Below, piece after piece: positions 16,069 through 30,548 of a stretch of 32,432 nt of DNA. Within the stretch, counting starts at the first letter, position 1. The number at the start of each line of letters is the position of its first letter. The position numbers and the translations under genes were made by a program. The stretch comes from a virus. Location of the stretch: the IMG/VR virus record IMGVR_UViG_3300010368_000051, positions 1-32,432 of that record, one strand, 5' to 3'. The notes under the pieces were generated by a model. That model searched no databases and was not told the origin of the DNA. It saw only the letters and a list, made by a program, of their open reading frames with translations.

Positions 16069-16088
16069 AGGTCTCTCCATCAATGATT

Positions 16089-16124: not shown

Positions 16125-16130
16125 TGTACT

Positions 16131-16792: not shown

Positions 16793-16800
16793 TTCGGTGG

Positions 16801-17019: not shown

Positions 17020-17020
17020 C

Positions 17021-17539
17021 CTAGCAGATCATGCTGGAAGATGACCAGCTGTCATCGAACTCTTCTTCGTCCGCAGACTCATCCCAGCCATCATTATCAT
17101 CGGCATTCTCGCCGGTGAACAGAGTGTCCATCGAGATGTTGTTAGATACCGCAAAATCATGGGCATCCTTGATTGCCTGTACGGCAGCGGCTTGTAGGCG
17201 GGCCATTTCGGCGAGCGTGGTCTGGTTCATTTGATGGTCTCCTTGTTGACGACCGCAGGTGTCTGGGTCAATTCTGAAAGTTTGCACAGATTCATAGTTG
17301 AATGAGCGCCATTCCATGATGTCGAAATCGACACATCGGATTTGATCGGTATATGCATGAGACTGTTCGGCAAGAGTTCCGCCGGTTGGTTCCAATGCAG
17401 CGTCGATCAGAGTTGGATTTGTGGTGCACATCATTGTGCGCAGCGAGCCATCCTTCTTGCGGAAGGTGACTTCGACAAGGCCAGCGTATAGCGCACTGCG
17501 CATGGTTTGGCGGCTGATTTCCATCGGCTTGGGTGTCAT
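17021..17539 (-). CDS. SH3-like (DUF2693-type) domain fused to SSxxC-tail paralogue 3
   Basis: 172 residues. Residues 1-95 contain VEVTFRKKDGSLRTMMCTTN and FDIMEWRSFNYESV, a pattern I recall from T4-like DUF2693-type SH3-barrel proteins. Residues 104-172 (MNQTTLAEMARLQ... ending SWSSSSMIC) are the third member of the small paralogue family. A strong AAGGAG sits eight bases before the internal ATG at 17230, so the short 69-residue protein is probably also made on its own. The start at 17539 overlaps the upstream gene by ATGA. Confidence 0.65.
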   Translation of the reverse strand: MTPKPMEISRQTMRSALYAGLVEVTFRKKDGSLRTMMCTTNPTLIDAALEPTGGTLAEQSHAYTDQIRCVDFDIMEWRSFNYESVQTFRIDPDTCGRQQGDHQMNQTTLAEMARLQAAAVQAIKDAHDFAVSNNISMDTLFTGENADDNDGWDESADEEEFDDSWSSSSMIC

Positions 17540-17808
17540 TGTGAGATCACCCGTGTTTGGCGGATCGTGGTGCCCTTGAAGAGACCAGCGCAAGCAACGC
17601 CTTCAACCCGGGCGCCGGTGACAGATGTCGCCGTCCAGCCGGTATGGAACGAATCATCTTTCGAGCATCCGAAGAAGTTGTATCCCGTGATATCAACTTC
17701 CGTATAGCCCTGCGATTCCAGCATGGATACTGTTGCATCCGGGCGTGTGCAGCCAGACACTGCGATTGCGGCAAGAAAGACTGCCGTGACAAATAGTGAT
17801 TTTTTCAT
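17536..17808 (-). CDS. Small lipoprotein (TGYNFFGC family)
   Basis: 90 residues. A signal peptide MKKSLFVTAVFLAAIAVSGC gives a lipobox with Cys20. The mature part (GYTEVDITGYNFFGCSKDD... GARVEGVACAGLFKGTTIR) has two further conserved cysteines and matches a small family I recall from phages and proteobacteria. It would be anchored in the cell envelope. Role unknown; a host-surface or exclusion role is only a guess. Confidence 0.75.
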   Translation of the reverse strand: MKKSLFVTAVFLAAIAVSGCTRPDATVSMLESQGYTEVDITGYNFFGCSKDDSFHTGWTATSVTGARVEGVACAGLFKGTTIRQTRVISQ

Positions 17809-18182
17809 GATATATCCTGTGCAAATGTTGCGTCAACATCAATGCCCTTATGGTCAACGATGTAGTCAATTACCCGTTGAGCTTCCCAGCGTTCCGGGTC
17901 TTCCTGTTCATCCGGGAACCCCCAGACTTCATAATGCGAATACCCAGCTTCCGGTGGGGTATCTTCCCGGGGAAGCGAGTAGTGAAACTTTGATGCCTGT
18001 ACACTGATGGACGTGCCATCACCAAGGATCATCGCCCGAGCCCTCCAGTCAGAATACCCGGTGGGCTTGTTATATGTGCGCAGCGCCATAATGACGTCTG
18101 ACATCGCCTTCTGATTAGGCGGGGTTGATCTGAGGACTTCGCCCTGCGAAGATACGATCACCGGAACATTTACCTTATTCAT
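17805..18182 (-). CDS. Conserved phage hypothetical protein (SVQASxxHYxxPR)
   Basis: 125 residues. The central ISVQASKFHYSLPRED, then SHYEVWGFPDEQE, is a pattern I recall in a conserved phage family of unknown role. GGAGA lies seven bases before the ATG, and a good sigma70-like promoter is 38 bases upstream. Confidence 0.7.
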   Translation of the reverse strand: MNKVNVPVIVSSQGEVLRSTPPNQKAMSDVIMALRTYNKPTGYSDWRARAMILGDGTSISVQASKFHYSLPREDTPPEAGYSHYEVWGFPDEQEDPERWEAQRVIDYIVDHKGIDVDATFAQDIS

Positions 18183-18219
18183 GGGACATCTCCACTTTCG
18201 TTGTGACTATTGAGCCCTA

Positions 18220-18248
18220 TGTATATCCTAACCAGATTTGTATGTCAA
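18220..18248 (-). promoter_or_regulatory. Sigma70-like promoter
   Basis: Minus-strand TTGACA, 17 bases, TATACA, upstream of the gene at 17805-18182. Confidence 0.8.
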
Positions 18249-18251
18249 CAT

Positions 18252-18788
18252 CTATCTACCGTAAAATTCAGAATATCCGGGATGACGTTTCGCCTGATCG
18301 AAAAGATACCATGATGCATTGTCCTTACCGGTGTGCTTCGAATCCTCGATCCACTTTACCCGGCCAATGGAAACGATCTTGTGGCAATATTCCAGATACG
18401 GTTTCGCCTGTACGGTCGATGCCCAGTCATTATCGAACAGCAGCCATGTAGGCGCTTGTGCCGATAGGTTGTCAATGATGGGGTGTAGGAGCTTGCGATC
18501 CCATGGCGGATTGGTGATAAACATCATAGTGTCTTGATGTGCCCTATAGTCCGATGTCATAGCATCAGCAATCATCCAGCCAAACTCCGGGTCGATATCA
18601 TATGCGCCGACGCACTTATGGCCAGCCTCGCTCTCAATATGATCGATCAATCGTCCATCACCGGCACATGGCTCGATGAAGCGAGTCCCGGGTGCAAGAT
18701 GCGGGAGGAGCGGGAGGACAGCCTTGATCGGGGTGGGATAAAAATCACGCTCAACTCGCTCGAATGTCCCGTCTGATCTCTTGCCCAT
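18252..18788 (-). CDS. Adenine-specific DNA methyltransferase-like protein
   Basis: 178 residues. DFYPTP near the start, EPCAGDG at 39-45 (the SAM-binding loop), DID at 64-66 and NPPW at 93-96 make an N6-adenine methyltransferase core. It is short, with no target-recognition domain visible, so specificity is unknown. It might protect phage DNA or methylate RNA or protein. It starts by TAATG overlap with the small gene upstream. Confidence 0.85.
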   Translation of the reverse strand: MGKRSDGTFERVERDFYPTPIKAVLPLLPHLAPGTRFIEPCAGDGRLIDHIESEAGHKCVGAYDIDPEFGWMIADAMTSDYRAHQDTMMFITNPPWDRKLLHPIIDNLSAQAPTWLLFDNDWASTVQAKPYLEYCHKIVSIGRVKWIEDSKHTGKDNASWYLFDQAKRHPGYSEFYGR

Positions 18789-18949
18789 TATCCACGTCCC
18801 GATCCGGAGTCTTTCACAAAGACTGGCTCGAACACTCGATAGTATCCATCGGCTGCCTGTGATTGCGCTTCGGCTTCATACTCGGAGAAGGAGCATTGAA
18901 CTTCCTTCTCCGATCCGGTGTCTTTGTGTCTGAATGTATACAATGCCAT
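18788..18949 (-). CDS. FmdB-like small protein lacking CxxC
   Basis: 53 residues starting MALYTFRHKDTGSEKEV. It resembles short phage FmdB-like proteins that begin MPxYxFK(N/D)xxTG, but has no CxxC zinc ribbon. The stop overlaps the methyltransferase start. No strong ribosome site precedes the ATG. Confidence 0.55.
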   Translation of the reverse strand: MALYTFRHKDTGSEKEVQCSFSEYEAEAQSQAADGYYRVFEPVFVKDSGSGRG

Positions 18950-18957
18950 GGTTAATC

Positions 18958-19269
18958 CTACATGCAGTGGTAACGCTCATATGATGGATCGCATGCATAT
19001 GGCGTTGTGATTGGTGAAACGAATTCTTTCTCGGTGAGAGAGTTCTTCCGAACCTCGGTGATGGTCGGGGCAACAATGTTCACAAGGTCCATGGCTTCCC
19101 GCATATTCGGACATTCCTTAGACAGGCGCACGTCCTTGCAGTCATCGCCCGGGCCATAGATGCAGGCAGCCCATCCACCGCTGAACTTGGCGACAATACC
19201 CTTGTAGCCGTATGCGAAATGTTGGATGTATGTGCCAGCTTGAATGCGATCAAATCCGTTGGTTGCCAT
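18958..19269 (-). CDS. Hypothetical protein (103 aa)
   Basis: Starts MATNGFDRIQAGTYIQHF with AGGA nine bases upstream. The first half is beta-like (YGYKGIVAKFSGGWAACIYG). Four cysteines are scattered; no motif recognised. It has its own promoter. Confidence 0.65.
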   Translation of the reverse strand: MATNGFDRIQAGTYIQHFAYGYKGIVAKFSGGWAACIYGPGDDCKDVRLSKECPNMREAMDLVNIVAPTITEVRKNSLTEKEFVSPITTPYACDPSYERYHCM

Positions 19270-19303
19270 GATGAAATTCCTCGGTTGCTCAAATCAGAAT
19301 GTC

Positions 19304-19332
19304 TATATAGGGCACTCGAAATGATATGTCAA
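19304..19332 (-). promoter_or_regulatory. Sigma70-like promoter
   Basis: Minus-strand TTGACA, 17 bases, TATATA, 35 bases before the gene at 18958-19269. Confidence 0.75.
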
Positions 19333-19727
19333 CCTACTTGCTGTTCAATTTCTGCGTTGCAGACGATAATGAGCACATCCAGAACGGTTTCGAGCGCTAG
19401 CTGAAATTCGATGGTCATAACATCGTTCGGAAATGTGCTTGGATTGTAATCGAGCGTTGTGGCGAAGCTCAGAAACTCTTCCCCGGGGTTGACTTGAAGT
19501 GCCCGAAAGATTTCGACCAGCCGAGGAGCATGAGTTTCATATCCGGCGCCGTTCTCGACATAGAGATCGAAATATGCATTCTGAAATACTCGGAACATCT
19601 CAAGGAATGGTGCGTCGTCCGATACCGGGCCGTTGTCCGGAATCAAATCGGATAGAGAGTTGATCTCGTCCGCCCGGCGACCCGCCCATCCGAAAATTCC
19701 TGATTGATCTTCTGGTGCATAATCCAT
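19329..19727 (-). CDS. Hypothetical acidic protein (132 aa)
   Basis: Acidic and probably mostly helical (EMFRVFQNAYFDLY, then FQLALETVLDVLIIVCNAEI). Starts in a TAATG overlap with the upstream gene. Unknown function. Confidence 0.6.
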   Translation of the reverse strand: MDYAPEDQSGIFGWAGRRADEINSLSDLIPDNGPVSDDAPFLEMFRVFQNAYFDLYVENGAGYETHAPRLVEIFRALQVNPGEEFLSFATTLDYNPSTFPNDVMTIEFQLALETVLDVLIIVCNAEIEQQVG

Positions 19728-20158
19728 TAGGTAATATCCAGTTCAATAGCATCCGTGGTTCGGGTTGTGACCTCACGAATAATTGACATACCGATGACAG
19801 AGAATTCAGTCCGGGAATTTGCCCATGTCGGCGCAAGGCGACTAAACTCAGCCGGGAATGCTTTCGCCCGTCTAACCAGAACGGTGATCTCATTATCATT
19901 CGGCATGCTGTTAAAGTGCAACATGATGTCGTTACACTCACCATCGGCGTTATGTGCGATATCATGTGAGGCATCACCATATTCGGTGTGGATATACCCA
20001 ATATCAAAGCATGTATCTGGCTCCTCTACGGCGAAGATTTCCGCATATTCCATCCCGACATTACATTCCCCATAGGTGCCGGTCATGTATGCAACCATTT
20101 CCCTGTGAAAATTTCCGGAATACGAGTCGGTCGCAATATGAAGGATGTATTTGATCAT
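19727..20158 (-). CDS. Conserved phage hypothetical protein (IATDSYSGNFxRE)
   Basis: 143 residues opening IKYILHIATDSYSGNFHREM, then an ECNVGMEY segment. This opening is one I recall from conserved phage proteins of unknown function. AGGAA lies before ATG 20158. A tRNA gene precedes it. Confidence 0.7.
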   Translation of the reverse strand: MIKYILHIATDSYSGNFHREMVAYMTGTYGECNVGMEYAEIFAVEEPDTCFDIGYIHTEYGDASHDIAHNADGECNDIMLHFNSMPNDNEITVLVRRAKAFPAEFSRLAPTWANSRTEFSVIGMSIIREVTTRTTDAIELDIT

Positions 20159-20175
20159 GATAAATTTCCTATTGT

Positions 20176-20263
20176 TGGTGGGTAGGGAAGGATTCGAACC
20201 TCCAGCGCCCTTTCGAGTCCAAATTTACAGTCTGGCAGTGTCCACCGTCTCACAAGCCTACCC
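20176..20263 (-). tRNA. tRNA-Tyr (anticodon GTA), CCA encoded
   Basis: Type II tRNA with acceptor GGGTAGG/CCTACCC, anticodon stem CCAGA/TTTGG and loop CTGTAAA. It has a long variable arm as expected for bacterial Tyr, T-arm GGAGG-TTCGAAT-CCTTC, A73 and an encoded CCA. Confidence 0.92.
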
Positions 20264-20275
20264 ATTTGTTACATC

Positions 20276-20722
20276 TTACTCGGTCGATAAACTTTGGTCA
20301 ACCCAAATCTTCACATCCGGGAACTTAAATCTTCCCCGAGCGGCCTTCATGACCACAGCCGCAATCTTGTTCGGATTTTCTTCATCCGTCACATCCCGGA
20401 CATGTGCAACCAGTTCGGGTCCACTCATGTTGGCGAATGGATCAGATGGGATGTATTCCTCGACCATCGCAATCTCGGCCATGAACTGCACCAGAGATGC
20501 CTCTGGACGGGCCGTCAGAGCTTCCACACACGTCTCGGCGTTCTTCTTGAACTTCCGGGCGGTCTGGATGATATCGGCGTCTATGACATCCCTTTGCTCA
20601 TCCTTGGCCAATCTCTCGGCCTCTGACATGAATGTCTGCATAAACGGAACCCATGCCGAATGCTGGCCGCCAAGTTTACGCATGCGATTGATGTCGTCTT
20701 TCAGTCTCTCGTACAGGGTCAT
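20276..20722 (-). CDS. YqeY-like (GatB tail domain) protein
   Basis: 148 residues, the length of YqeY. It starts MTLYERLKDDINRMRK and has EIAMVEEYIPSDPFANMSGPEL and a later NPNKIAAVVMKAARGRF, matching the YqeY/GatB C-terminal helical domain, which in GatB contacts tRNA. It sits between tRNA-Tyr and tRNA-Trp genes, which suits a tRNA-binding role. Free-standing YqeY has no proven activity. The ribosome site before ATG 20722 is weak. Confidence 0.75.
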   Translation of the reverse strand: MTLYERLKDDINRMRKLGGQHSAWVPFMQTFMSEAERLAKDEQRDVIDADIIQTARKFKKNAETCVEALTARPEASLVQFMAEIAMVEEYIPSDPFANMSGPELVAHVRDVTDEENPNKIAAVVMKAARGRFKFPDVKIWVDQSLSTE

Positions 20723-20737
20723 AATATTTCTTTCGTT

Positions 20738-20813
20738 TGGCACCACCGCCCGGGATCGAACCGGGGACACACGGTTTTGGAGACCGTTGCTCTACCAGCT
20801 GAGCTACGGTGAT
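20738..20813 (-). tRNA. tRNA-Trp (anticodon CCA), CCA encoded
   Basis: Acceptor ATCACCG/CGGTGGT (one U-G pair), D-arm TAGCTCAGCTGGTAGAGC, anticodon stem ACGGT/ACCGT with loop CTCCAAA, T-arm CCCGG-TTCGATC-CCGGG, G73 and encoded CCA. Confidence 0.93.
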
Positions 20814-20817
20814 GCAA

Positions 20818-21135
20818 TTACATTAGCAGTTGGGCAACCCACATAAATCCAAGCGTGACGGTCCACAGAAGGAACGAATATAGGATCAGGATGCCCGGGG
20901 TAACCTTGCTGGGTGTTACTGCCGGATCGGTATCCAGAACCGTGCGACATGTGTCACCGGCCCGGGTCAGCAGATGCGGTAGTGTCATGATCGATAGCAG
21001 CGCCCATGCATGGACAATCGAGATGTCCGGGAGACCGAGCGGTGTGAGGAACCATCCCCAGATAATCGAGAACACAAAGGCGCCGTAAATTCCGACAGCG
21101 AGCGCAAATACAAATCGTACAATGAATGTCAGCAT
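20818..21135 (-). CDS. Membrane protein (105 aa)
   Basis: Three hydrophobic stretches: residues 1-30, 40-58 and 82-104. A soluble loop with RAGDTCRTVLDTDP lies between the last two. Probably a three-helix inner-membrane protein. GGAGA precedes the ATG. Unknown function. Confidence 0.65.
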   Translation of the reverse strand: MLTFIVRFVFALAVGIYGAFVFSIIWGWFLTPLGLPDISIVHAWALLSIMTLPHLLTRAGDTCRTVLDTDPAVTPSKVTPGILILYSFLLWTVTLGFMWVAQLLM

Positions 21136-21136
21136 A

Positions 21137-21628
21137 TTATTTATCTCCTACAAGATAGGCCGGAAGGCCGAAATGAACCTCACCATATTCTACATACCAG
21201 TCGCTGTCAGGCCGTCCGGGTGTAAATAGTTCGGGGCTGATGCCGCATGTGATGCATACAGCATCATGAATTTCACGCTGCGACGGTTTCGTGGCAGCAA
21301 GTTCGATTTGTTTCCGGACGCCAGCAACGAGTCGTTCAAGCGCAGGCGATGGCCGGGCATTTTCAATCATGCGTTCGCTGTCAGCGATGTATTTCTCTCG
21401 TGCAGCATCATCCGGAAACGGCGCATAGATGAGCTGACCGAAATCATCTGGATGTAGATCGATAGCACGCATGGCGGCATCAAGCTCATCAATGTATCGG
21501 CCAATCCTAGCATCAAGCATGGACACGGCCCGCTTGGCATCTTCTCGGTCCTCGACGGCAAAGAGCTGGCGCTCCCACGTTCCGTCATACTGACCGCCGC
21601 CGCCAAATGAAATCACATACAACATCAT
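21137..21628 (-). CDS. Hypothetical protein (163 aa)
   Basis: Begins MMLYVISFGGGGQYDGTWER and continues with an acidic helical middle and VCITCGI near the end. AGGAGA lies before the double ATG at 21628. No family recognised. It lies just downstream of a tRNA gene. Confidence 0.65.
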   Translation of the reverse strand: MMLYVISFGGGGQYDGTWERQLFAVEDREDAKRAVSMLDARIGRYIDELDAAMRAIDLHPDDFGQLIYAPFPDDAAREKYIADSERMIENARPSPALERLVAGVRKQIELAATKPSQREIHDAVCITCGISPELFTPGRPDSDWYVEYGEVHFGLPAYLVGDK

Positions 21629-21646
21629 GAAGTCTCCTCTTAAATT

Positions 21647-21724
21647 TGGTGGGCAGAGTAGGACTCGAACCTACTAATCAACCGGTTATGAGCCGGTGGC
21701 CTCGACCACTTTGGCTTCCCGCCC
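21647..21724 (-). tRNA. tRNA with CAT anticodon (elongator Met or Ile2), CCA encoded
   Basis: Acceptor GGGCGGG/TCTGCCC, anticodon stem ACCGG/CCGGT with loop CTCATAA, T-arm GTAGG-TTCGAGT-CCTAC, A73 and CCA. A G1-C72 pair rules out an initiator. Met and lysidine-modified Ile cannot be told apart by eye. Confidence 0.88.
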
Positions 21725-21735
21725 AAAAAATATGC

Positions 21736-21880
21736 GTATGCTCGTGAGTATGAATGTTCCGGTGACATCTAGGCTGTATACCCGCCTGATGGTTTTGGGT
21801 TAACCCCGCCGCTTTCGCAGCGTTCATTCAAACCGCCCTGACCGTTGTTGGCTTTACACCACACTTGCTCACGAGCATAC
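21736..21880 (-). ncRNA. Candidate structured RNA closed by a 13-bp stem
   Basis: No gene lies here. A perfect 13-bp inverted repeat (GTATGCTCGTGAG) closes a 145-base element. On the minus strand the inside folds further: CGCTGC-GAAA-GCGGCG, AGGC/GCCT, GGTTT/AAACC and a long-range TGAATG/CATTCA. It follows a protein gene and leads directly into a tRNA gene. Family not recognised; compare the stable RNAs C and D of T4. Confidence 0.55.
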
Positions 21881-21882
21881 TG

Positions 21883-21898
21883 ACGCCCTGCAGGGCGT
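21883..21898. repeat. 16-base perfect palindrome
   Basis: ACGCCCTGCAGGGCGT, between a gene stop and the structured RNA. It could be a processing or protein-binding site. No U-run follows, so it is not a simple terminator. Confidence 0.5.
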
Positions 21899-21911
21899 GT
21901 TCCGTTATAAC

Positions 21912-22202
21912 CTACCAGCTAACATAGATTGAAATCGACTCGGATGGATCAATCCCATGATTGGCTGCATCCAGTGCTTCCCGGCCCTCGGCGAGAGTGG
22001 TGTAGAGCTTCGAATATTTGGCATCATCCCGCAGGTCTTCCGCAGTTCCGAGGGTCTGGTATGAGTCATTGCTGACTTCATATGCTGCCATGAAGGCATC
22101 CCCAAACTCATGGGTCTTCTGCTTTGACCAGCCAAGATTTTCAAGGGCCGGAAAGATGTCATCAAAGAGTTCGAAGAAATCTGGTGCTTTGCGAGGTGTC
22201 AT
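21912..22202 (-). CDS. Hypothetical acidic protein (96 aa)
   Basis: Starts MTPRKAPDFFELFDDIFPAL, with GGAGA five bases upstream of ATG 22202. Helical and acidic, ending SESISIYVSW. The earlier ATG at 22214 contains the ribosome site and is unlikely. Function unknown. Confidence 0.65.
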   Translation of the reverse strand: MTPRKAPDFFELFDDIFPALENLGWSKQKTHEFGDAFMAAYEVSNDSYQTLGTAEDLRDDAKYSKLYTTLAEGREALDAANHGIDPSESISIYVSW

Positions 22203-22215
22203 GTCAGTCTCCATA

Positions 22216-22427
22216 ATGAAATTGGTGGAGCTGGCGCTCTCCCAAGTGAGCTACAACCCCGAATTTGGTTTTAGAGCCAACCATCGTCCTGTATCCGGCC
22301 TACTGGAAATCTCCCTGTTGGTGGGAAGGGGAGGTAATTAATCCCCCCGTATCTTTTTAACGCTCTCTAAACTTGGTAGTCAGTGGGAATTTCGAAATCC
22401 CGACTGGACATATACTTATACCGAAAA
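22216..22427 (-). other. Noncoding stretch with tRNA-like debris
   Basis: About 210 bases without a convincing gene. On the minus strand it contains a D-arm-like GTAGCTCACTTGGGAGAGC, a T-arm-like GGGATTTCGAAATTCCC, and three separate ACCA endings (at about 22372, 22318 and 22226), but no complete cloverleaf. Probably remnants of decayed or recombined tRNA genes. Confidence 0.4.
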
Positions 22428-22565
22428 TTAATCCAGCGCAAGCAGAAATGCAAGGAATACCAGCCAACCGGCCAATTCCGTGCCCGGGGCGAAGATCGCC
22501 AACAGCACGGCGCCTGTGATCACAGATGCGACCAGCACGGCTTTCTTGAGCCATTTATCACTCAT
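22428..22565 (-). CDS. Small membrane protein (45 aa)
   Basis: Starts MSDKWLKKAVLVASVITGAV. A charged N-terminus is followed by two hydrophobic stretches split by FAPGTELAG. It overlaps the upstream gene by eight bases. Unknown function. Confidence 0.6.
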   Translation of the reverse strand: MSDKWLKKAVLVASVITGAVLLAIFAPGTELAGWLVFLAFLLALD

Positions 22566-22734
22566 TGACCCACACCTCGATTGTATCGATGTCAACATAC
22601 ACCATCATCTCTTCGTCTGCGTTCGCTTTCCGATAGTCCATGGCCAGATCATCATCCGCCGTCACGAATTGCTCGACAGTGTGAAACCCCTTACCACGAC
22701 TGAATGTCTTTTTGGTTACAAGAAACATGTCCAT
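22558..22734 (-). CDS. Hypothetical acidic protein (58 aa)
   Basis: Starts MDMFLVTKKTFSRGKGFHTV and ends in DIDTIEVWVNE. An AAGG element favours the third-residue ATG at 22728. It starts in a TAATG overlap with the next gene upstream. Unknown function. Confidence 0.6.
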   Translation of the reverse strand: MDMFLVTKKTFSRGKGFHTVEQFVTADDDLAMDYRKANADEEMMVYVDIDTIEVWVNE

Positions 22735-23105
22735 TATCCTTTTCCGAGTTCATCCAATGGAAAGCCAAGAGCTTTCAGCTGAGTTTCGATATCAGTAATC
22801 TGATCGTCCATCGCCGCATTGGCGAATTTTTCGGTGACCGTAAATTTGACTACATTCACTGGCTTCCATGCACCGGCGTGAGCGCTGGCGCCAACATCCC
22901 ACATCGGTTCAGAGATTACAATCTCGATGACCGGCAGAGGCGGCTCCCCAGAATTACTATCCCGGCTCTTATACCCAGTCGCAAATCTCCCGGAAGTATC
23001 ACCGGACTTTTCGATTGCGGCATTGTACAAATTCCGGACGGTGTTAAGAGCATTCCATTCCCGGACCAGATTAAGGGTCTGGTGCATTTCATCAACTCGG
23101 CTCAT
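22734..23105 (-). CDS. Hypothetical protein (123 aa)
   Basis: Starts MSRVDEMHQTLNLVREWNAL with AGGA seven bases before. A helical N-terminus, a central Ser/Asp-rich loop and a helical end (ITDIETQLKALGFPLDEL). No motif recognised. Confidence 0.65.
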   Translation of the reverse strand: MSRVDEMHQTLNLVREWNALNTVRNLYNAAIEKSGDTSGRFATGYKSRDSNSGEPPLPVIEIVISEPMWDVGASAHAGAWKPVNVVKFTVTEKFANAAMDDQITDIETQLKALGFPLDELGKG

Positions 23106-23114
23106 GGCATATCC

Positions 23115-23549
23115 TCAATTTATGGCGGAAGGTGACCAATCAGAAATTCTTCCGAGTTCGGTATACACCTTCCGGCGATCCTTATTCTTATTGACTTGAT
23201 TGCCGCCAGAAGTAAGTCTAAATGAAAATGTGCGCTTTTCCATATCAACATCATCCTTTCCGACATATACAACACTATCAATCTCCGGGCAGTACACTGC
23301 CCATCCGTCGATCAATTCAAAATTAATTGGAACCTTCTTTCCATTAATCGTGGTAGAGAATTGTATATCTATCATACCCCTGTTCAGCGTTCTATATTTT
23401 ATTTGCAATCGATATATCTTGGAATCTTTCATTGCTATTAGATCGACGGCGCTGTAGTCGTGCATGGGTAGAAATATCTCATACCCAAGCTTTGCCAAAT
23501 CCCGAATAACTTCGATTTGTCCGATATTACCCTTTTCATTCGTATTCAT
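23115..23549 (-). CDS. PD-(D/E)xK homing-type endonuclease
   Basis: 144 residues. KGNIGQIEVIRDLAKLGYEI holds Glu13, SAVDLIAMKD gives Asp36 and YRLQIKYRT gives Gln49-x-Lys51. This is the core of the PDDEXK_5 family, which includes the cyanobacterial intron endonuclease I-SspI-type enzymes. It is more A/T-rich than its neighbours, a sign of mobility. Start 23549 has GGAGA five bases before it, but that site lies in the loop of a 12-bp hairpin that overlaps a late promoter. Expression is therefore probably limited to late infection. It has no intron around it, so it is free-standing. Confidence 0.82.
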   Translation of the reverse strand: MNTNEKGNIGQIEVIRDLAKLGYEIFLPMHDYSAVDLIAMKDSKIYRLQIKYRTLNRGMIDIQFSTTINGKKVPINFELIDGWAVYCPEIDSVVYVGKDDVDMEKRTFSFRLTSGGNQVNKNKDRRKVYTELGRISDWSPSAIN

Positions 23550-23582
23550 AAGAATCTCCAATCGTTCTTATGAATATTTATA
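23543..23582 (-). promoter_or_regulatory. Late promoter built into a ribosome-site-masking hairpin
   Basis: A 12-bp perfect inverted repeat TATTCATAAGAA/TTCTTATGAATA (23543-23554 and 23565-23576) with a ten-base loop CGATTGGAGA that holds the ribosome site; the start codon is in the 3' arm. TATAAATA at 23575-23582 would start transcripts within the 5' arm, near 23569, destroying the hairpin. Confidence 0.75.
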
Positions 23583-24069
23583 CAAATGCGGCAGTCACCG
23601 TTTCAGTCGCATATTGTTGTGCGATCAGACCATACATGCGCAGAACATTGGCATGCCGAAGGCGGAAGAACTCAAGGCCCATCTCATACTTCATTTTGTT
23701 CTTGGCCGATGGATTGTTGGACAGATTTTCTGTCATGTCCAGAAACTTGCAGAGGATGCCGAGTTCAGACTTGAACTCCCAGAGATATTCCATGTAGCTG
23801 ACATCCGGCTCATGTGTCATCTCAACAACCGCAGTGACTACAAGGATAGGCATCCGAGCCTCGATCAAATCTTGGGGAGTGACCGATGTGTCCTCGATGA
23901 CATCATGAAGATAGCAGACGGCCTCAAGCATCGGGCAGAACGCAAGGCTGGCACGAGCCCGGGCAGCAACCTTTTCGACATGGTTGATGAAGTATGGCCC
24001 TCCATCATAGAGCTGACCTTCATGGGCAGTCTCGGCAATGGCCTTGGCAGTCTTAACAAAATCATTCAT
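23578..24069 (-). CDS. HD-domain ppGpp hydrolase-like protein (SpoT/MESH1 type)
   Basis: 163 residues. AHEGQLYDGGPYFINHV (His16, His30), then LHDVIEDT (His55-Asp56, Glu59-Asp60), then KFLDMTENLS give the ordered metal and catalytic motifs of the RelA/SpoT hydrolase domain. There is no synthetase or regulatory domain, as in MESH1. It may hydrolyse (p)ppGpp or a related alarmone made in phage defence. The substrate is inferred. GGAGA lies five bases before the ATG, with a sigma70-like promoter upstream. Confidence 0.85.
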   Translation of the reverse strand: MNDFVKTAKAIAETAHEGQLYDGGPYFINHVEKVAARARASLAFCPMLEAVCYLHDVIEDTSVTPQDLIEARMPILVVTAVVEMTHEPDVSYMEYLWEFKSELGILCKFLDMTENLSNNPSAKNKMKYEMGLEFFRLRHANVLRMYGLIAQQYATETVTAAFV

Positions 24070-24095
24070 GGCGCTCTCCGTTTTTCGATCTTCAT

Positions 24096-24124
24096 AATCT
24101 ACAGGACCCGTTGATCAGAGTCAA
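24096..24124 (-). promoter_or_regulatory. Sigma70-like promoter
   Basis: Minus-strand TTGACT, 17 bases, TAGATT, 27 bases before the HD-domain gene. Confidence 0.65.
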
Positions 24125-24345
24125 GTGGAATCTGCAGTGAATGTCATCCCGATGAAATCAGCGTCCAGTAATGCCGGTGCCACCCGATAATACGGCGAAT
24201 TGTCATGCACATAGTTTTCATCATTATGTGTGATGCAGAACAATTCGGCGACTTCCGGATCAGAGAATGTCCGGCCCACAACTTCCGTGAACGTGTCAAG
24301 ACCGTTAAAGGTGTCGGACACGATCACATATATCTGAGTTCCCAT
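24121..24345 (-). CDS. Hypothetical protein (74 aa)
   Basis: Starts MGTQIYVIVSDTFNGLDTFT with GAGGA four bases upstream. The opening resembles small 'MxxYVVVSD' phage proteins. Unknown function. Its start lies 10 bases after the stop of the next gene. Confidence 0.6.
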   Translation of the reverse strand: MGTQIYVIVSDTFNGLDTFTEVVGRTFSDPEVAELFCITHNDENYVHDNSPYYRVAPALLDADFIGMTFTADST

Positions 24346-24355
24346 GGTATCCTCC

Positions 24356-25084
24356 CTAGTGGTCATAGGTGTGTTCATTGGCGACCATCCAATCGATCAA
24401 GGCATCAAGGGTATCAAACTTGCGGATGATCTCGATGCTGTGATAATAGAGGCGCCCATATGTGTACCCGGAATGATCCTTGGCCGCAGTGATGAATTGA
24501 CAGCCATCATCGGAACACCTCCGGGTGAAGATGTTGATCATGACATGATCGCTCGGGACATCACCCTCATCAAACTTTTGTCCGACAATGGACTCGAACA
24601 ATGGCGTCGAGGCATCCGTCGCAATGCGCACGGCGCTGGCGAATGTCGCTCGATCCTCGGGCGAAACCGTGCCGGGAGCCTCGCATGTATCATCGTCATC
24701 CCATGTACTTCCGGACTCGTATCCTGTGACTTTCAGGGTGAGCCGGAATGCGAATGCGGTTTCATTGGTCTTGAAATCCCGGTAGTTGGCGATGCTGACC
24801 CGTTCGCCGCCAAACAGCGTATTGATCTTCTCGTCCACCTGATTACGGTCAATGCTGCGGGGAGATGCCGATCCTTGACTTGTGACATACTCCCAGTCCA
24901 CGAACTGTGGATCGGTTGCACTCAGGAATGCGGTGTACTTGTCAGCGGTTGCCTCTCGGCCCAATTTCGTGAGCTGGGTATAACACGCCTGAATCTTGCG
25001 AGTCAGGGTGGCGTTCTGTGCATTCAAATCGACAAGCTTGGCTTCTTGGAATGCGATCTTCTCTGCAATGGTTTTGGTTGCCAT
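24356..25084 (-). CDS. Hypothetical protein with N-terminal coiled coil (242 aa)
   Basis: Residues 1-45 (MATKTIAEKIAFQEAKLVDL...) form a heptad-rich coiled coil. The body is mixed alpha/beta with acidic patches (WDDDDTCEAP) and a helical end. No family recognised. GGAGA lies five bases before ATG 25084; it is the first gene after a strong terminator and has its own promoter. Confidence 0.7.
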   Translation of the reverse strand: MATKTIAEKIAFQEAKLVDLNAQNATLTRKIQACYTQLTKLGREATADKYTAFLSATDPQFVDWEYVTSQGSASPRSIDRNQVDEKINTLFGGERVSIANYRDFKTNETAFAFRLTLKVTGYESGSTWDDDDTCEAPGTVSPEDRATFASAVRIATDASTPLFESIVGQKFDEGDVPSDHVMINIFTRRCSDDGCQFITAAKDHSGYTYGRLYYHSIEIIRKFDTLDALIDWMVANEHTYDH

Positions 25085-25112
25085 GGGACTCTCCGTTAAT
25101 TTCCATTGATAC

Positions 25113-25141
25113 ACCTTACAGTATCCGGGAATGGGTGTCAA
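25113..25141 (-). promoter_or_regulatory. Sigma70-like promoter
   Basis: Minus-strand TTGACA, 17 bases, TAAGGT, placed directly after the intrinsic terminator of the SPFH gene. Confidence 0.65.
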
Positions 25142-25167
25142 CAAAAAAGGAGGGCCGAAGCCCTCCT
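25142..25167 (-). terminator. Intrinsic terminator after the SPFH gene
   Basis: A perfect 8-bp stem AGGAGGGC/GCCCTCCT around a TTCG loop, followed on the minus strand by six T bases. The only textbook terminator in the window. Confidence 0.95.
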
Positions 25168-25192
25168 AATTCATCACATCGATACGGTGCGG

Positions 25193-26071
25193 TTACTGAA
25201 CCGGGCGCATGAAGAATGGAAGACCACTCGACTCGCCACCAGATGAGCTGTACTGTGAAAGAGCACCATCCCACTTCTCGATTGCATTCAGCATCAGGAT
25301 ATCCGGATTTTCCCGGAGTGCCGCACCCTGAATGCGAAGGGCATCTGCCTCGGCAGTGGCCTCCAGAATTCGAGCTTGGGCTCGACCAGTGGCTTCCGCA
25401 ATCTCGATCTGAGCTTGGGCAGTCGCCGTTGCGATTTGATTTTCTCGCTGGGCGGCTTCTTGATCGGCTTCGACCTTCATCTCAATGGCTCGTTGAACCT
25501 GTGGAGGAAGACGGAGGGACCCGATCCAGTAGATGTCATTCACTTGGATACCTTGGGGTGCAAGGCGTTCTCGAACAGCCTCTTCAACATCTTCCATGAT
25601 GTCAACTCGACCGGCGCCGTAAATGTATGCGGCGTTGTGTGCGGATGCCGAGTTGTTCAGGGCATCCCGGACAATATTGCGGATGCGCTGATCCGTGATC
25701 TCTTCGATGCCAAGACGATATGTCTCGAACAGGTCAGATGCACGATCCGGGATGATTTGATATGAGATGCCAATGTCGGCATTGATATCCAGACCATCGG
25801 AGTCTTGGAAGCTGAACGATTCGTTGTTTGGCGAGCCCTCATCAATGGCGGCGGTCCAAACATAGTTCTGTTCGAACGTTGGGAACAGGTACATGTCAGT
25901 ACCCATGCCGAGCCATTCATAGCCGACACCGATTTCTTCGGCCTGAACGCCGGAATCGGAACCGAGATTGTGGACCTTGACACCGACATAACCGGCATGA
26001 ACCTGACCACAAGCGGCGAGAGATAGAAGGGATAGCCCAACAATGGCGCCCTGTACAAATTTCTTCATCAT
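25193..26071 (-). CDS. SPFH/prohibitin-family lipoprotein
   Basis: 292 residues. A signal peptide with lipobox LSLAAC (Cys21) leads into an SPFH/Band 7 domain (about 25-215: GYVGVKV, DINADIGISYQI, RLAPQGIQVNDI). A long Ala/Glu/Gln helix follows (215-265), typical of oligomerising SPFH proteins, with a Gly/Ser-rich tail. It would form membrane-bound rings in the cell envelope. Phage SPFH proteins are known but their role is unclear; lysis timing or superinfection effects are possibilities. A strong terminator ends the transcript. Confidence 0.9.
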   Translation of the reverse strand: MMKKFVQGAIVGLSLLSLAACGQVHAGYVGVKVHNLGSDSGVQAEEIGVGYEWLGMGTDMYLFPTFEQNYVWTAAIDEGSPNNESFSFQDSDGLDINADIGISYQIIPDRASDLFETYRLGIEEITDQRIRNIVRDALNNSASAHNAAYIYGAGRVDIMEDVEEAVRERLAPQGIQVNDIYWIGSLRLPPQVQRAIEMKVEADQEAAQRENQIATATAQAQIEIAEATGRAQARILEATAEADALRIQGAALRENPDILMLNAIEKWDGALSQYSSSGGESSGLPFFMRPVQ

Positions 26072-26077
26072 GATATA

Positions 26078-26275
26078 TTAGCCTTTCGCAAGCATTTTGG
26101 AAATTTTGGTGAATGCAAATACATTTCCGATGAGTGCAAACACCAAGATCACGGGGATCATAGCAACAAGCACGCTCGAATTTGTATTCATGAGGAATGA
26201 CAGCAGGACATTACACATCCAGATGTCGGCGGTGATAAGTGCTGCAATCAGCACCCATGGTAGATATTGTTTCAT
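26078..26275 (-). CDS. Two-helix membrane protein (65 aa)
   Basis: Starts MKQYLPWVLIAALITADIWM. Two hydrophobic helices and a basic KISKMLAKG tail. GGAGA is before the ATG. It directly precedes the SPFH lipoprotein and could be its partner. Confidence 0.65.
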   Translation of the reverse strand: MKQYLPWVLIAALITADIWMCNVLLSFLMNTNSSVLVAMIPVILVFALIGNVFAFTKISKMLAKG

Positions 26276-26300
26276 TATGTAGTCTCCATTATATAAAATT

Positions 26301-26382
26301 TGGTCCGGGGGGCAGGGCTCGAACCTGCACTCTAAAAGTTCCGGCGTCAATGCCGGGGCGTCTACCATTCCGCCACCCCCGG
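26301..26382 (-). tRNA. Type II tRNA, unusual 6-base anticodon loop
   Basis: Acceptor CCGGGGG/CCCCCGG, a Leu-like D-arm GCGGAATGGTAGACGC, T-arm GCAGG-TTCGAGC-CCTGC, a variable arm and encoded CCA. The anticodon stem CCGGC/GCCGG leaves only ATTGAC, six bases. Placing U33 at the first T would give anticodon TGA (Ser). Identity uncertain. Confidence 0.8.
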
Positions 26383-26397
26383 ATGGGGTAGAAAGTG

Positions 26398-26482
26398 TGG
26401 TGCGAGTAGAGGGAGTCGAACCCACACGAGTTACCTCGACGGCACCTAAAGCCGTTGCGTCTACCGATTCCGCCATACTCGC
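26398..26482 (-). tRNA. tRNA-Leu (anticodon TAG), CCA encoded
   Basis: Acceptor GCGAGTA/TACTCGC, anticodon stem ACGGC/GCCGT with loop TTTAGGT, long variable arm, A73 and CCA. Confidence 0.93.
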
Positions 26483-26488
26483 AATATG

Positions 26489-26562
26489 TGGAGCGGATAG
26501 TCAGAATCAAACTGACATCCTCAGATTGGAAATCTGCTGCACTATCGTTGTGCTATACCCGC
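26489..26562 (-). tRNA. tRNA-Gly (anticodon TCC), CCA encoded
   Basis: Acceptor GCGGGTA/TATCCGC, Gly-like D-arm, anticodon loop TTTCCAA, T-arm GTCAG-TTTGATT-CTGAC, T73 and CCA. Confidence 0.9.
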
Positions 26563-26573
26563 CCGGAAATTAT

Positions 26574-26648
26574 TGGTCTGAAACCCGTGAATCGAACACG
26601 GCTTCCGATCTTCCAAAGATCAGCGATGACCCAGCCTCTTCGCCTCAG
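26574..26648 (-). tRNA. tRNA-Pro (anticodon TGG), CCA encoded
   Basis: Acceptor CTGAGGC/GTTTCAG with two G-U pairs, anticodon loop TTTGGAA, T-arm CCGTG-TTCGATT-CACGG, A73 and CCA. Confidence 0.9.
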
Positions 26649-26656
26649 ATGAATTG

Positions 26657-26664
26657 TATTTATC
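26657..26664 (-). promoter_or_regulatory. Late-promoter-like GATAAATA before the tRNA cluster
   Basis: One base off the TATAAATA core, nine bases before tRNA-Pro, the first tRNA of a run of four. Weak evidence by itself. Confidence 0.3.
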
Positions 26665-26682
26665 AGAACTTACCGTTCTGGT

Positions 26683-26748
26683 TTACGATGTCTTGAAATG
26701 CGTCAAGCGATTCGTCATCGTATAATCTTCCCAGACAAAATCATTCAT
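26683..26748 (-). CDS. 21-residue leader-like peptide
   Basis: MNDFVWEDYTMTNRLTHFKTS with GGAGA six bases before the ATG, between a sigma70-like promoter and the tRNA run. It may be a translated leader or a gene remnant. Confidence 0.4.
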   Translation of the reverse strand: MNDFVWEDYTMTNRLTHFKTS

Positions 26749-26779
26749 GATGCATCTCCGTGTGCGTTTCAATATACAC

Positions 26780-26807
26780 ATAGTACCAGATGCGCAGGCC
26801 ATGTCAA
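26780..26807 (-). promoter_or_regulatory. Sigma70-like promoter for the Pro-Gly-Leu tRNA run
   Basis: Minus-strand TTGACA, 16 bases, TACTAT. It would transcribe the 21-codon frame and then four tRNA genes. Confidence 0.7.
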
Positions 26808-26861
26808 GCAAATAAACCGGGGTATTCTGTTGCAAGGATTATAAATCATATAAGTAGTTGT

Positions 26862-27443
26862 ATGATCACCAAACCTTTTACATATTTATTATACCACATC
26901 CCCTCGGGAAAATGGTATTATGGCGTAAAGTATGCCGTTGGGTGCAACCCAACCGATCTTTGGACCACGTATTTTTCTTCGTCTGAGCCGGTTAAGGCGC
27001 TTATAGAAGAATATGGTAAGGACTCGTTCAAAGTCGAAGTTAGACGAACTTTTAATACTACAGAAGAAGCATTATATTGGGAAAGCAGGGTTTTGTGTCG
27101 TATGAAAGTTGTAACCAATCCAATGTGTCTTAATCGATCAATCGGGGGAGGCACTGGATTTTATAGCAATGAGCGTAGTGCAGAAACCCGCCAGAAAATT
27201 TCTGACGGTGTTAAGAAATTTAATAAATTGAATCCTTCTAAAGTTAGCCGAGCAAGAACCAAAGGTGCAAAAACTTTCTGGAAGAACATGTCACCCGAAA
27301 CACGGGAACAGATTTTACGACAACGCAGAAATCAGAAAAATCCTATGAAAGGGAAAAAGCAAAGACGGGTTTCGTGTACAAAGTGCCGCCTAGAAACATC
27401 AATTAATGCTTTTACACGCCATATAAAAACGTGTAAAAATTGA
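26862..27443 (+). CDS. GIY-YIG homing endonuclease with C-terminal zinc finger
   Basis: 193 residues on the plus strand, against the direction of its neighbours. YLLYHIPSGKWYYGVKY is the GIY-YIG core in a known phage variant. YFSSSEPVKALIEEYGKDSF continues the domain, and Glu in LYWESRVL is the likely metal ligand. SAETRQKISDGVKKF is a NUMOD3-like DNA-binding repeat. CTKCRLETSINAFTRHIKTC near the end is a C2H2/C2HC-type finger. A/T-rich, so probably acquired. A TATAAATC box lies 15 bases before the ATG. The stop abuts the tmRNA gene, a likely insertion point. Confidence 0.88.
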   Translation: MITKPFTYLLYHIPSGKWYYGVKYAVGCNPTDLWTTYFSSSEPVKALIEEYGKDSFKVEVRRTFNTTEEALYWESRVLCRMKVVTNPMCLNRSIGGGTGFYSNERSAETRQKISDGVKKFNKLNPSKVSRARTKGAKTFWKNMSPETREQILRQRRNQKNPMKGKKQRRVSCTKCRLETSINAFTRHIKTCKN

Positions 27444-27445
27444 CG

Positions 27446-27880
27446 GGATTATGTTCCAACGCTCCCGCCGGGCGTGTATGACCTTACGCTGCTAGAGCAT
27501 AATCCATAGGTGCATTATCGTTAGATGCTGCATTTACGTTTGTTGAACCTGTAACGGGCTTCACCCGGCACTCTCAGATTTACCTACTCATACCCCGTCG
27601 ATCCCATTTCGCCCCCATCAAGAACACTTGGCACCCTTCAACGGGCTGAGCGCCACTTACTTAAGGAGGCCGATCACGTCTGATCGGGGTCTTAAGCTTG
27701 ATCCAAGTGCTCATGGTGGAGGCGGGGAACTTCGATGTCCCCGTCCGGCTGTATTTTCGCTCGTCCTCAAACGAGTGCAGTTATTACGGATTTCTCCGCA
27801 ATTCTATTGGTACTGGGGCGAGGTACTGATCCTCATTCTCTTGGCTCACAACCAAGCGCATCACCTTTATGCTTGTCCCA
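27446..27880 (-). ncRNA. ssrA: Two-piece (circularly permuted) tmRNA
   Basis: Read on the minus strand. The acceptor piece comes first (about 27880 to 27714) and ends T-arm-like GGGGACATCGAAGTTCCCC, then CGCCTCC-A-CCA. After a 97-base spacer, the coding piece starts at 27616 with GGGGGCG, then AAATGGGATCGACGGGG, the usual tmRNA 5' signature. GGGGGCG pairs with CGCCTCC over 7 bp, including the G3-U70 pair that specifies alanine. The tag frame (27531-27484) encodes AASNDNAPMDYALAA and TAA, a classical proteolysis tag. GGATTATG/CATAATCC closes the tag helix. It rescues stalled ribosomes with SmpB. The outer ends are approximate. Confidence 0.93.
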
Positions 27881-27890
27881 GCATTGTTAT

Positions 27891-27967
27891 TGGTACGTGC
27901 ACTAGGACTCGAACCTAGACTCTACAGATTAGAAGTCTGTTGCATTGTCCAGTTATGCTATGCACGT
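27891..27967 (-). tRNA. tRNA-Arg (anticodon TCT), CCA encoded
   Basis: Acceptor ACGTGCA/TGCACGT, anticodon stem ACAGA/TCTGT with loop CTTCTAA, T-arm CTAGG-TTCGAGT-CCTAG, A73 and CCA. A TATAAATA (27967-27974) touches its 5' base, too close to make the full tRNA; it could serve the tmRNA that follows. Confidence 0.93.
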
Positions 27968-27977
27968 ATTTATAATG

Positions 27978-28084
27978 TTGAATGGCTGGGTCGCTAACTC
28001 CCGTGTAAAGGGCAGGCCGCCAACTTGAAATCATCCGCCTAACCGAGGCCGTCGCCTTGAAATCTATGATGATCCGCCATTCAA
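27978..28084 (-). ncRNA. Candidate structured RNA closed by a 9-bp stem
   Basis: TTGAATGGC/GCCATTCAA encloses 107 bases between tRNA-Thr and tRNA-Arg. Inside are two near-repeats (GATTTCAAggcgaCGGCC and GATTTCAAgttgGCGGCC) and a CCC-TTTACAC-GGG hairpin like an anticodon arm. No T-arm and no coding frame. Unknown RNA or a rearranged tRNA. Confidence 0.45.
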
Positions 28085-28089
28085 TTCTG

Positions 28090-28165
28090 TGGTGCCGCCA
28101 CGAAGATTCGAACTCCGCACATCCTGATTACAAGTCAGGCGCTCTACCAACTGAGCTATGGCGGC
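28090..28165 (-). tRNA. tRNA-Thr (anticodon TGT), CCA encoded
   Basis: Acceptor GCCGCCA/TGGCGGC, D-arm TAGCTCAGTTGGTAGAGC, anticodon stem CCTGA/TCAGG with loop CTTGTAA, T-arm CGGAG-TTCGAAT-CTTCG, A73 and CCA. Confidence 0.93.
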
Positions 28166-28166
28166 G

Positions 28167-28574
28167 TTATTCTTCGCAGTTGAGCCAGACTCCGAGATTG
28201 TCATATCTCATATACTTGATCCAGCGCAGATTGACACCGGTGAAATGCTTGGGTGTTCGCTCATTATTGTCAAGCACCCATGATGTCTGCAGTTCAAGGT
28301 CATCGACCAAACATACAAGATGGAAGCCAACCCCGGGAATTTCACACAGCATGATGCTGATGTCCGTTGGATCAATTCCAAAATGAATACACAGCTCGGC
28401 ACATGTCAGGGCAAACCCATCACAATCATCATCGGCCCGGTATGTCTGGTCGGCCAGAATTCTGGTTGCATGCGATTGCCAATGCTCGGGCTTCCCCATG
28501 GTATCCTGATCCGCTGTCCATGTGATGGCTTGATCGGTCATGGTCTTGGCCCGGCGGGCGGTCTCATGAATCAT
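28167..28574 (-). CDS. Transglutaminase-like cysteine protease (BTLCP type)
   Basis: 135 residues. DCDGFALTCAELC holds Cys51, GFHLVCLV holds His85 and SWVLDNN holds Asp102, the Cys-His-Asp triad of bacterial transglutaminase-like cysteine peptidases. No signal peptide in this form. Substrate unknown; it could be a cell-wall or protein amide. AAGGA lies eight bases before ATG 28574. It overlaps the lipoprotein gene upstream by 11 bases. Confidence 0.85.
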   Translation of the reverse strand: MIHETARRAKTMTDQAITWTADQDTMGKPEHWQSHATRILADQTYRADDDCDGFALTCAELCIHFGIDPTDISIMLCEIPGVGFHLVCLVDDLELQTSWVLDNNERTPKHFTGVNLRWIKYMRYDNLGVWLNCEE

Positions 28575-28749
28575 CGGTGGTATCCTTCGGCGGGCAATGA
28601 ATTTCTGACGTTCGGGCTGGATCATCACACATGTCAACATATCCCCATGGGGCGGATGTTGGGTTTGATCCATGCGGTAACATGGTGGGTTCGTCGGTCG
28701 CACATCCCCGAAGAAATACGGCGGCGATGAATGCGAGCATAAACTTCAT
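28564..28749 (-). CDS. Small lipoprotein (61 aa)
   Basis: Signal peptide MKFMLAFIAAVFLRGC with lipobox Cys16; a short Pro/Asp-rich mature part with two more Cys. AGGAG lies eight bases before the ATG, and a TATAAATA late box is 20 bases upstream. It could be an outer-membrane spanin-type or surface protein; the evidence does not decide. Confidence 0.7.
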   Translation of the reverse strand: MKFMLAFIAAVFLRGCATDEPTMLPHGSNPTSAPWGYVDMCDDPARTSEIHCPPKDTTDDS

Positions 28750-28768
28750 ATCACAATCTCCTCGACGT

Positions 28769-28776
28769 ATTTATAC
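28769..28776 (-). promoter_or_regulatory. T4-type late promoter box TATAAATA
   Basis: Exact minus-strand TATAAATA, 20 bases before the lipoprotein-protease pair. Confidence 0.7.
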
Positions 28777-28779
28777 ATC

Positions 28780-28960
28780 CGCCGGTATGGGTACTCATAC
28801 GCCACCCCCTATCGTCGGGGGCTGTGAACATCATATACACCCTAGGGTTCGGTGGTTGCAACCACCGTGGTGGGGATCATATGTTCCATTTACCAAGACT
28901 GATCCAAGTGCACTCGTCCAATCTGTCACGCATATAAGTGCCGATATCGGCGGGATGTAA
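28780..28960 (-). other. Noncoding stretch rich in inverted repeats
   Basis: No gene seen. It contains GTATG/CATAC and CCCCC/GGGGG hairpins and a perfect 18-base palindrome CGGTGGTTGCAACCACCG at 28850-28867. No U-run follows any hairpin. It may be a terminator region, a protein-binding site or an unknown RNA. Confidence 0.45.
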
Positions 28961-29185
28961 TTACGCAGCGGCGATCTGGGCCAGCAGGGTGATGATCGTC
29001 AGGATGGCCGCCCAGATGAGCGATCCAGCCAGCCCGACACAGAAACCCCAGAGGGCGCCGAGAAGGCCGAACACATATGACTTGGCGCCCATATTAGCAA
29101 ATAGTGATAGCCCGGTCACAAGGACGTATCCGAGGATCGTGGAGATGCTGGCCAGAACAATGAATGTCTGAAAGAAAATTTCCAT
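28961..29185 (-). CDS. Two- or three-helix membrane protein (74 aa)
   Basis: Almost wholly hydrophobic, with Gly/Ala-rich helices at about residues 4-30, 35-50 and 52-72, and few charges. GGAGAG lies before the ATG. The topology would suit a holin, and a cysteine protease and a lipoprotein lie downstream, but this is a guess. Confidence 0.65.
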   Translation of the reverse strand: MEIFFQTFIVLASISTILGYVLVTGLSLFANMGAKSYVFGLLGALWGFCVGLAGSLIWAAILTIITLLAQIAAA

Positions 29186-29220
29186 AATATGTACTCTCCG
29201 TGTTTGATTGAATTTGGAAC

Positions 29221-29664
29221 CTACACTACGCCGTTGACGAAGTCAAGCTCCTTTTTGTTGAATGCCGCAACATATGCAGCAGCCTCATCATCGTCAAAGA
29301 TCGCATGAATATCATGCCAGCTTAGCTCAATCATCTGACCGGTGTCCGCAACAATGAACACATAATCAGTTTCCCAACTGTCCTGCGGCCCGTAATTCTT
29401 CATGGCCTTCTCGACATATTCATCGAGACCGAAGAACTGGGCGTGCACACATCCGATATAGATCAGCTTGCGGGCATACTTCTCATGAACACCAGTCTCG
29501 TAACGGAACCAATCAACACCATCGATTATCTGAGATATCTTCTTATGGGTCGGTGTGATCAGTGCCCGGATATCCCATAACTCGGCACCGGGTTCGATCT
29601 CGACTTCGATATGGTCGGCATCCCATTTGTAAGGGAGTGATGTATCAAGCGTAATGAGTTTCAT
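29221..29664 (-). CDS. Hypothetical acidic protein (147 aa)
   Basis: Starts MKLITLDTSLPYKWDADHIE; mixed alpha/beta with an acidic C-terminus. No family recognised. It overlaps the upstream gene by ATGA. Confidence 0.65.
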   Translation of the reverse strand: MKLITLDTSLPYKWDADHIEVEIEPGAELWDIRALITPTHKKISQIIDGVDWFRYETGVHEKYARKLIYIGCVHAQFFGLDEYVEKAMKNYGPQDSWETDYVFIVADTGQMIELSWHDIHAIFDDDEAAAYVAAFNKKELDFVNGVV

Positions 29665-30041: not shown

Positions 30042-30052
30042 AATAAATTCTC

Positions 30053-30352: not shown

Positions 30353-30380
30353 AGCTATACCTCGGAGTCAAATGCATAAT

Positions 30381-30457: not shown

Positions 30458-30462
30458 AAGAT

Positions 30463-30540: not shown

Positions 30541-30548
30541 ATAATCTA

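Follow-up and report, generated by a model that had tools for sequence, protein, structure and literature searches.

A probable late-only translation switch in the leader of a free-standing PD-(D/E)xK homing-type endonuclease gene

The homing endonuclease genes I-TevI, I-TevII and I-TevIII of phage T4 have a late promoter in the 5' side of a hairpin that sequesters the ribosome-binding site (RBS), and their early and middle read-through transcripts are silent (PMC2988022). A hairpin likewise sequesters the RBS of mobE, a free-standing homing nuclease gene within a larger transcript of Aeromonas phage Aeh1, and the same late-only translation logic governs T4 e, soc, 49 and 26, late genes that lie within early or middle transcripts. 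Here we describe a leader in IMG/VR virus record IMGVR_UViG_3300010368_000051. The window analysed is that complete record, 32,432 bases, and is a fragment. On its minus strand, at 23115..23549, lies a free-standing gene for a 144-amino-acid homing-type endonuclease of the PD-(D/E)xK class (PDDEXK_5, I-Ssp6803I-type), and we judge, with a probability of roughly 0.83, that the leader of this gene is a late-only translation switch. An earlier note on this DNA had proposed such a switch of the I-TevI type; at the level of sequence the proposal is supported by the geometry and energetics of the leader, by shuffle tests, by calibration on T4, and by conservation and compensatory changes among homologues.

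The closest match to the window leader is, on comparison, T4 segB rather than I-TevI. The segB hairpin has GGAG in its loop, the ATG in its 3' arm, TATTTATGTTC, and a late box, CATAAATA, in its 5' arm, and the gene is free-standing and tRNA-linked, lying in the T4 tRNA cluster. The two differ in that the window gene no longer adjoins a tRNA gene and in that segB encodes a GIY-YIG fold, unrelated to the window's PD-(D/E)xK; the segB late promoter was predicted in a review and not mapped. The three I-Tev genes are group I intron-encoded and specify GIY-YIG or HNH enzymes, whereas the window gene is a free-standing PD-(D/E)xK gene. The mobE product is an HNH nuclease, and its gene lies in a ribonucleotide reductase locus, while T4 e, soc, 49 and 26 are not homing-type mobile nucleases.

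The minus strand of the leader reads, 5' to 3', TATAAATA TTCAT A AGAACGATTGGAGATTCTT ATG AATACG; the stretch downstream of the box is TTCATAAGAACGATTGGAGATTCTTATGAATACG. The box TATAAATA (23575..23582) is an exact match to the T4-type late promoter box. In T4 the late box is numbered from T(-13) to A(-6) (PMC2988020), so that with the box at -13 to -6 the predicted +1 (last A of the box plus 6) falls at 23569, inside the 5' arm of an inverted repeat. That arm, TATTCATAAGAA, occupies 23565..23576 on the minus strand and is partly overlapped by the box. It is followed by a 10-nt loop, CGATTGGAGA (23555..23564), with the Shine-Dalgarno (SD) sequence GGAGA at 23555-23559, and by the 3' arm, TTCTTATGAATA (23543..23554), with the ATG at 23547-23549 inside it. 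The arms form 12 bp and are 100% complementary. The hairpin described in the earlier note, with its ribosome site in the loop and its start codon in the arm, is thus exact in the sequence, and the start proposed there agrees with the published numbering. The supposed source of read-through is the co-oriented upstream gene (23578..24069, minus strand), which encodes a member of the metal-dependent phosphohydrolase family (phrog_990). Its TAA (23578-23580) sits within the late box, 28 bp from the nuclease ATG, and because the gene ends inside the box, read-through RNA from it would include both arms. A reading of the stem as a transcription terminator was rejected, as no T-run follows it. The nuclease-leader repeat is one of 13 inverted repeats in the window (arms of at least 10 nt, spacing of at most 40 nt). 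There are six exact copies of TATAAATA in the window against 0.34 expected, a number reached in 0/100 shuffles, and three or four of those other than the nuclease box directly precede genes. One copy (27967-27974, minus strand) overlaps the first base of a tRNA-Arg(UCU) gene (27891-27967); a late start from it would land within the tRNA.

From this layout we infer how the switch would work. Read-through RNA from the upstream gene would hold both arms and form the 12-bp stem, in which the start codon is paired and the Shine-Dalgarno sequence is held in the 10-nt loop, and the calculated opening cost suggests that ribosomes would initiate poorly. Late in infection a phage gp55-type polymerase would initiate at about 23569, and the late RNA, without the outer half of the 5' arm, would not form the stem, so that the nuclease would be made. 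The energetics were calculated with secondary-structure models at 37 C, which ignore ribosomes and co-transcriptional folding. The switch value, a measure applicable to any gene with a late box, was taken as the cost of opening the RBS (-13 to +4) in read-through RNA minus that in RNA beginning at +1. For the nuclease gene the opening cost was 11.9 kcal/mol in read-through RNA versus 4.4 in late RNA from 23569, giving a switch value of 7.6 kcal/mol; the late cost stayed at 4.2-4.6 kcal/mol for any assumed start from 23566 to 23571. Other window genes with an exact late box gave switch values of only 1.2-1.8 kcal/mol. The fold of the 62-nt leader, at -11.3 kcal/mol (z -2.7), was equalled in 3/200 shuffles. 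In a stricter test, in which the sequence from +1 on was fixed and only the part absent from the late transcript was shuffled, the cost of 11.9 kcal/mol was reached in 8/2000 shuffles. In silico, read-through RNA folds over the ribosome site and late RNA retains too little of the 5' arm to do so, as the earlier note had expected. When the measure was applied to T4, the top ranks went to segB, e, I-TevII, 49, 26 and I-TevI, for all six of which RBS-sequestering structures have been described (PMC2988022, PMC3014915); the value for segB was 10-14 kcal/mol.

Homologues were gathered by protein sequence alone and gave a clade, MN[TV]NEKG, of 21 non-redundant leaders; a further homologue scan found no new loci. 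At the DNA level, no relatives of 13001-32432 were found in the phage collection, and an exact search of IMG/VR with TATAAATATTCATAAG was set aside, its 82 loci being apparently unrelated chance matches. A late box in a relative was defined as TATAAATA with at most one mismatch, or as the Aeh1-type [A/G]CTAAATA, within 70 nt upstream; the Aeh1-type box differs from the window's and is used by several PDDEXK_5 relatives (L137-L144). Such a box was present in 17 of the 21 leaders versus 75 of 444 open reading frames, identified with a simple script, in two of these phages (Fisher p 7e-10), and over the comparisons made, box enrichment before the nuclease family ran from p 7e-10 to 5e-11. The clade's leaders had a median switch value of 8.05 kcal/mol; T4 genes with a late box gave 1.45 (p 5e-7), and genes of the same phages 1.36 (p 4e-6). 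In 12 of the 17 box-bearing leaders, window included, only 0-7 of 400 shuffles were as good; for L131, L135, L137, L144 and L146 the figure was 18-63/400.

Most of the leaders possess a stem that sequesters the ribosome site. The stem sequences differ among subgroups, with at least four well-supported types. Pairings across the relatives include CATTCAT/ATGAATG; TACATTCATA with TATGAATGTA over the ATG in L133, L092 and L132; GTATTTATAAAT with ATTTATGAATAC in L097; TCTGCT/AGCAGG, which covers the SD and encloses the box in its loop, in L139, L141 and L142; CTATCT/AGATAG in L143 and L147; and CATAAA...CTCC with GGAG...TTTATG in L129. In nearly all stem-bearing relatives the predicted late start lies downstream of the 5' arm or interrupts it. 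Within the group whose stem covers the ATG, five pairs are altered in both partners (at codon 3, for instance, T-A is replaced by C-G), and the compensatory changes that the earlier note had asked after do occur in relatives. No single inherited sequence underlies the stems. Two further genes of contig G008 may be noted. An HNH-type gene of the phage that carries L142, located in the same region (L173:12628-13065, minus strand), has an exact GCTAAATA within a stem over its ribosome site and a switch value of 11.9 kcal/mol, and appears to extend the device to a further class of nuclease. In a GH19-type endolysin gene, G008:C1:139588-140202 (minus strand), the late box is AATAAATA and a hairpin covers the ribosome site; with a switch value of 6.2, this gene parallels T4 gene e. 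A second, distant clade, HTKNKGD (Sf-FR1 type), was not counted as having the same switch, since its conserved hairpin stops some 15 nt short of the ATG and most of its leaders do no better than shuffles. Members L086, L098-L106, L108-L111, L113, L114 and L116 have TATAAATA nested in the hairpin, behind tRNA-Arg(UCU), and the hairpin, GTCTTAT/ATAAGAC or CTCTTAT/ATAAGAG, shows a two-sided G-C/C-G swap. The arrangement resembles the seg43(25) hairpin mentioned in PMC2988022.

The assignment of the 144-residue product rests on a match to Pfam PDDEXK_5 (PF11645) with an E value of 1.5e-14 and 54.6 bits (curated cut-off 26.1). This was the sole Pfam match, and no GIY-YIG domain was found in the protein. 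When 26 members of the family were combined into a profile, it matched PDB 2OST (E 9.2e-6), which we take to be I-Ssp6803I, a tRNA-intron homing endonuclease. Across 26-27 family sequences D36 and K51 are invariant and Q49 is at least 90% conserved, giving a D...QxK catalytic pattern. The protein is therefore probably a PD-(D/E)xK homing-type endonuclease, as the earlier note had it. I-Ssp6803I resembles it in belonging to the PDDEXK_5 family and in its D..QxK residues, and differs in being intron-encoded and cyanobacterial. The target of I-Ssp6803I is a tRNA gene; we know of no late-only hairpin switch for that enzyme.

The relatives point to a tRNA gene as well. In 16 loci (L129, L131-L133, L092, L135-L137, L139, L141-L147) the nuclease gene meets tRNA-Ser(GCU) at its 3' end, either overlapping the tRNA gene or abutting it, and in three more (L093, L096, L097) the tRNA gene lies just upstream. 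The overlap reaches 39 nt, and several loci place the nuclease stop codon in the anticodon loop. Because the nuclease genes lie against it, tRNA-Ser(GCU) is suggested as the homing target of the MN[TV]NEKG clade. No tRNA was found at the window nuclease gene. The 3' tail of that gene (23115..23153, minus strand) encodes GRISDWSPSAIN, which matches the GSVDEWFKSAPC that L129 encodes within its tRNA-Ser(GCU) gene; the tail is thus likely a remnant of a lost tRNA, and the window nuclease has probably lost its tRNA neighbour. In three pairs of loci whose nuclease genes are 79-85% identical (L131/L092, L139/L142 and L143/L147), homology extends only from about -43/-63 to +455/+501, and the flanks are mostly unrelated. 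Judged by these boundaries, box and hairpin in the relatives travel with the gene inside a mobile cassette. A cassette that brings its own late box and hairpin would therefore be late-only wherever it lands.

Some relatives have an additional element. In L137, L139, L141-L144, L146 and L131-L133 a 15-bp dyad, for example CAGATGGCTCATCTG, stands beside the late box about 25-45 nt upstream of the start. It resembles the tRNA-Ser anticodon arm, CAGATTGCTAATCTG, at 13/15 positions in L137, a likeness equalled in 1/300 shuffles. The dyad is possibly an operator that copies the homing site, as for I-TevI. No such anticodon-arm-like dyad is present in the window.

These dyads bear on the alternative that survives best, though we consider it improbable: that the window's inverted repeat is mainly a DNA operator, a dyad over the late promoter to which the endonuclease binds, repressing itself as I-TevI does, with RNA folding incidental. 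Many relatives do have a separate dyad beside the box, some of them like the anticodon arm. That operator-like dyad is, however, a distinct element upstream of the hairpin. The stem, in turn, varies in sequence among relatives yet continues to cover the SD or the ATG, with its 5' arm before the late start, whereas there is no need for an operator to follow the ribosome site. The operator and RNA-switch roles could coexist.

A still less probable alternative is that the hairpin keeps the ribosome site permanently hidden and expression low, and that TATAAATA is there by chance or for another purpose. AT-rich leaders raise the odds of such boxes, and box-less homologues exist, among them L093 with a 14-bp stem and no TATAAATA; against this stand the box enrichment before the family and the consistent geometry of box and stem. 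Chance self-complementarity of an AT-rich start region is the least probable explanation of all, for although start regions just as costly to open occur, with no late box, in several other genes of the window, and a GIY-YIG gene start in the window has a similar hairpin at only 22/400 shuffles, the window hairpin's opening cost is rarely reached in shuffles and the arrangement is repeated independently in homologues with different stems.

Several observations weigh against a late-only translation switch. Weak residual structure persists in the late RNA (the 4.4 kcal/mol given above), and the switch measure is imperfect, since it missed T4 soc (1.6). In L131, L144, L145 and L146 the switch is weak or close to what shuffles give, and L093, L096, L136 and L138 are without a late box. 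In the cyanophage HTKNKGD clade the hairpin does not significantly hide the ribosome site, most leaders being within shuffle range. Finally, no gp55 homologue was found in the 32-kb fragment, which may merely reflect its incompleteness; one is encoded by the contig that carries relative L092 (E 6e-26), and one by Synechococcus phage Sf-FR1.

The earlier note had placed the switch in a setting unrelated to that of T4, and this must be revised. The contig has T4-type late boxes and, as in T4-like phages, encodes an RnlA-like RNA ligase 1, polynucleotide kinase/phosphatase, DNA ligase, NAMPT and a bifunctional NMN adenylyltransferase/NUDIX protein; it also carries 11 tRNA-like genes. Such switches, moreover, were already known beyond GIY-YIG enzymes and on free-standing genes (HNH I-TevIII, Aeh1 mobE, and segB in its tRNA cluster). 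A second free-standing homing-type gene in the window, at 26862-27443 on the plus strand, encodes a SegE-like GIY-YIG protein with NUMOD3. At 26840-26880 its ATG, at the likely start 26862, lies in a 9-bp hairpin directly after a one-mismatch late box, TATAAATC. The switch value of this start, 5.4 kcal/mol, was matched by 22/400 shuffles and is suggestive only.

The same note had held that the switch arose or spread independently. Independent origin is likely, because the homologues use different stems, and to this must be added that cassette transfer, judging by the paired loci, clearly spreads the switch too. Since HNH and GIY-YIG nucleases, free-standing ones included, are already known with such switches, the kind of switch is not new; what is new is that a PD-(D/E)xK family carries it, how widely it is conserved and that its stems are replaced. 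No earlier report of such a switch on a PD-(D/E)xK nuclease family was found in a literature search of partial coverage. Tentatively, and at somewhat less than even odds, we suggest that the late-only hairpin may be a portable module, rebuilt repeatedly in a PD-(D/E)xK family aimed at tRNA-Ser(GCU), with the logic kept and the stem replaced in nearly every subgroup, and that part of the family may add an operator mimicking the anticodon arm beside the late box, arriving by convergence at two-layer control like that of I-TevI.

On this evidence late-only translation is a general solution for mobile nucleases across T4-type phages and is not peculiar to the introns of T4: nucleases of unrelated folds carry the switch, and one family keeps its logic while the hairpin changes. 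The many naturally occurring hairpins of this family offer material for asking why selection disfavours the early expression of homing nucleases, and the family's link to tRNA-Ser(GCU) provides a concrete, testable homing target.
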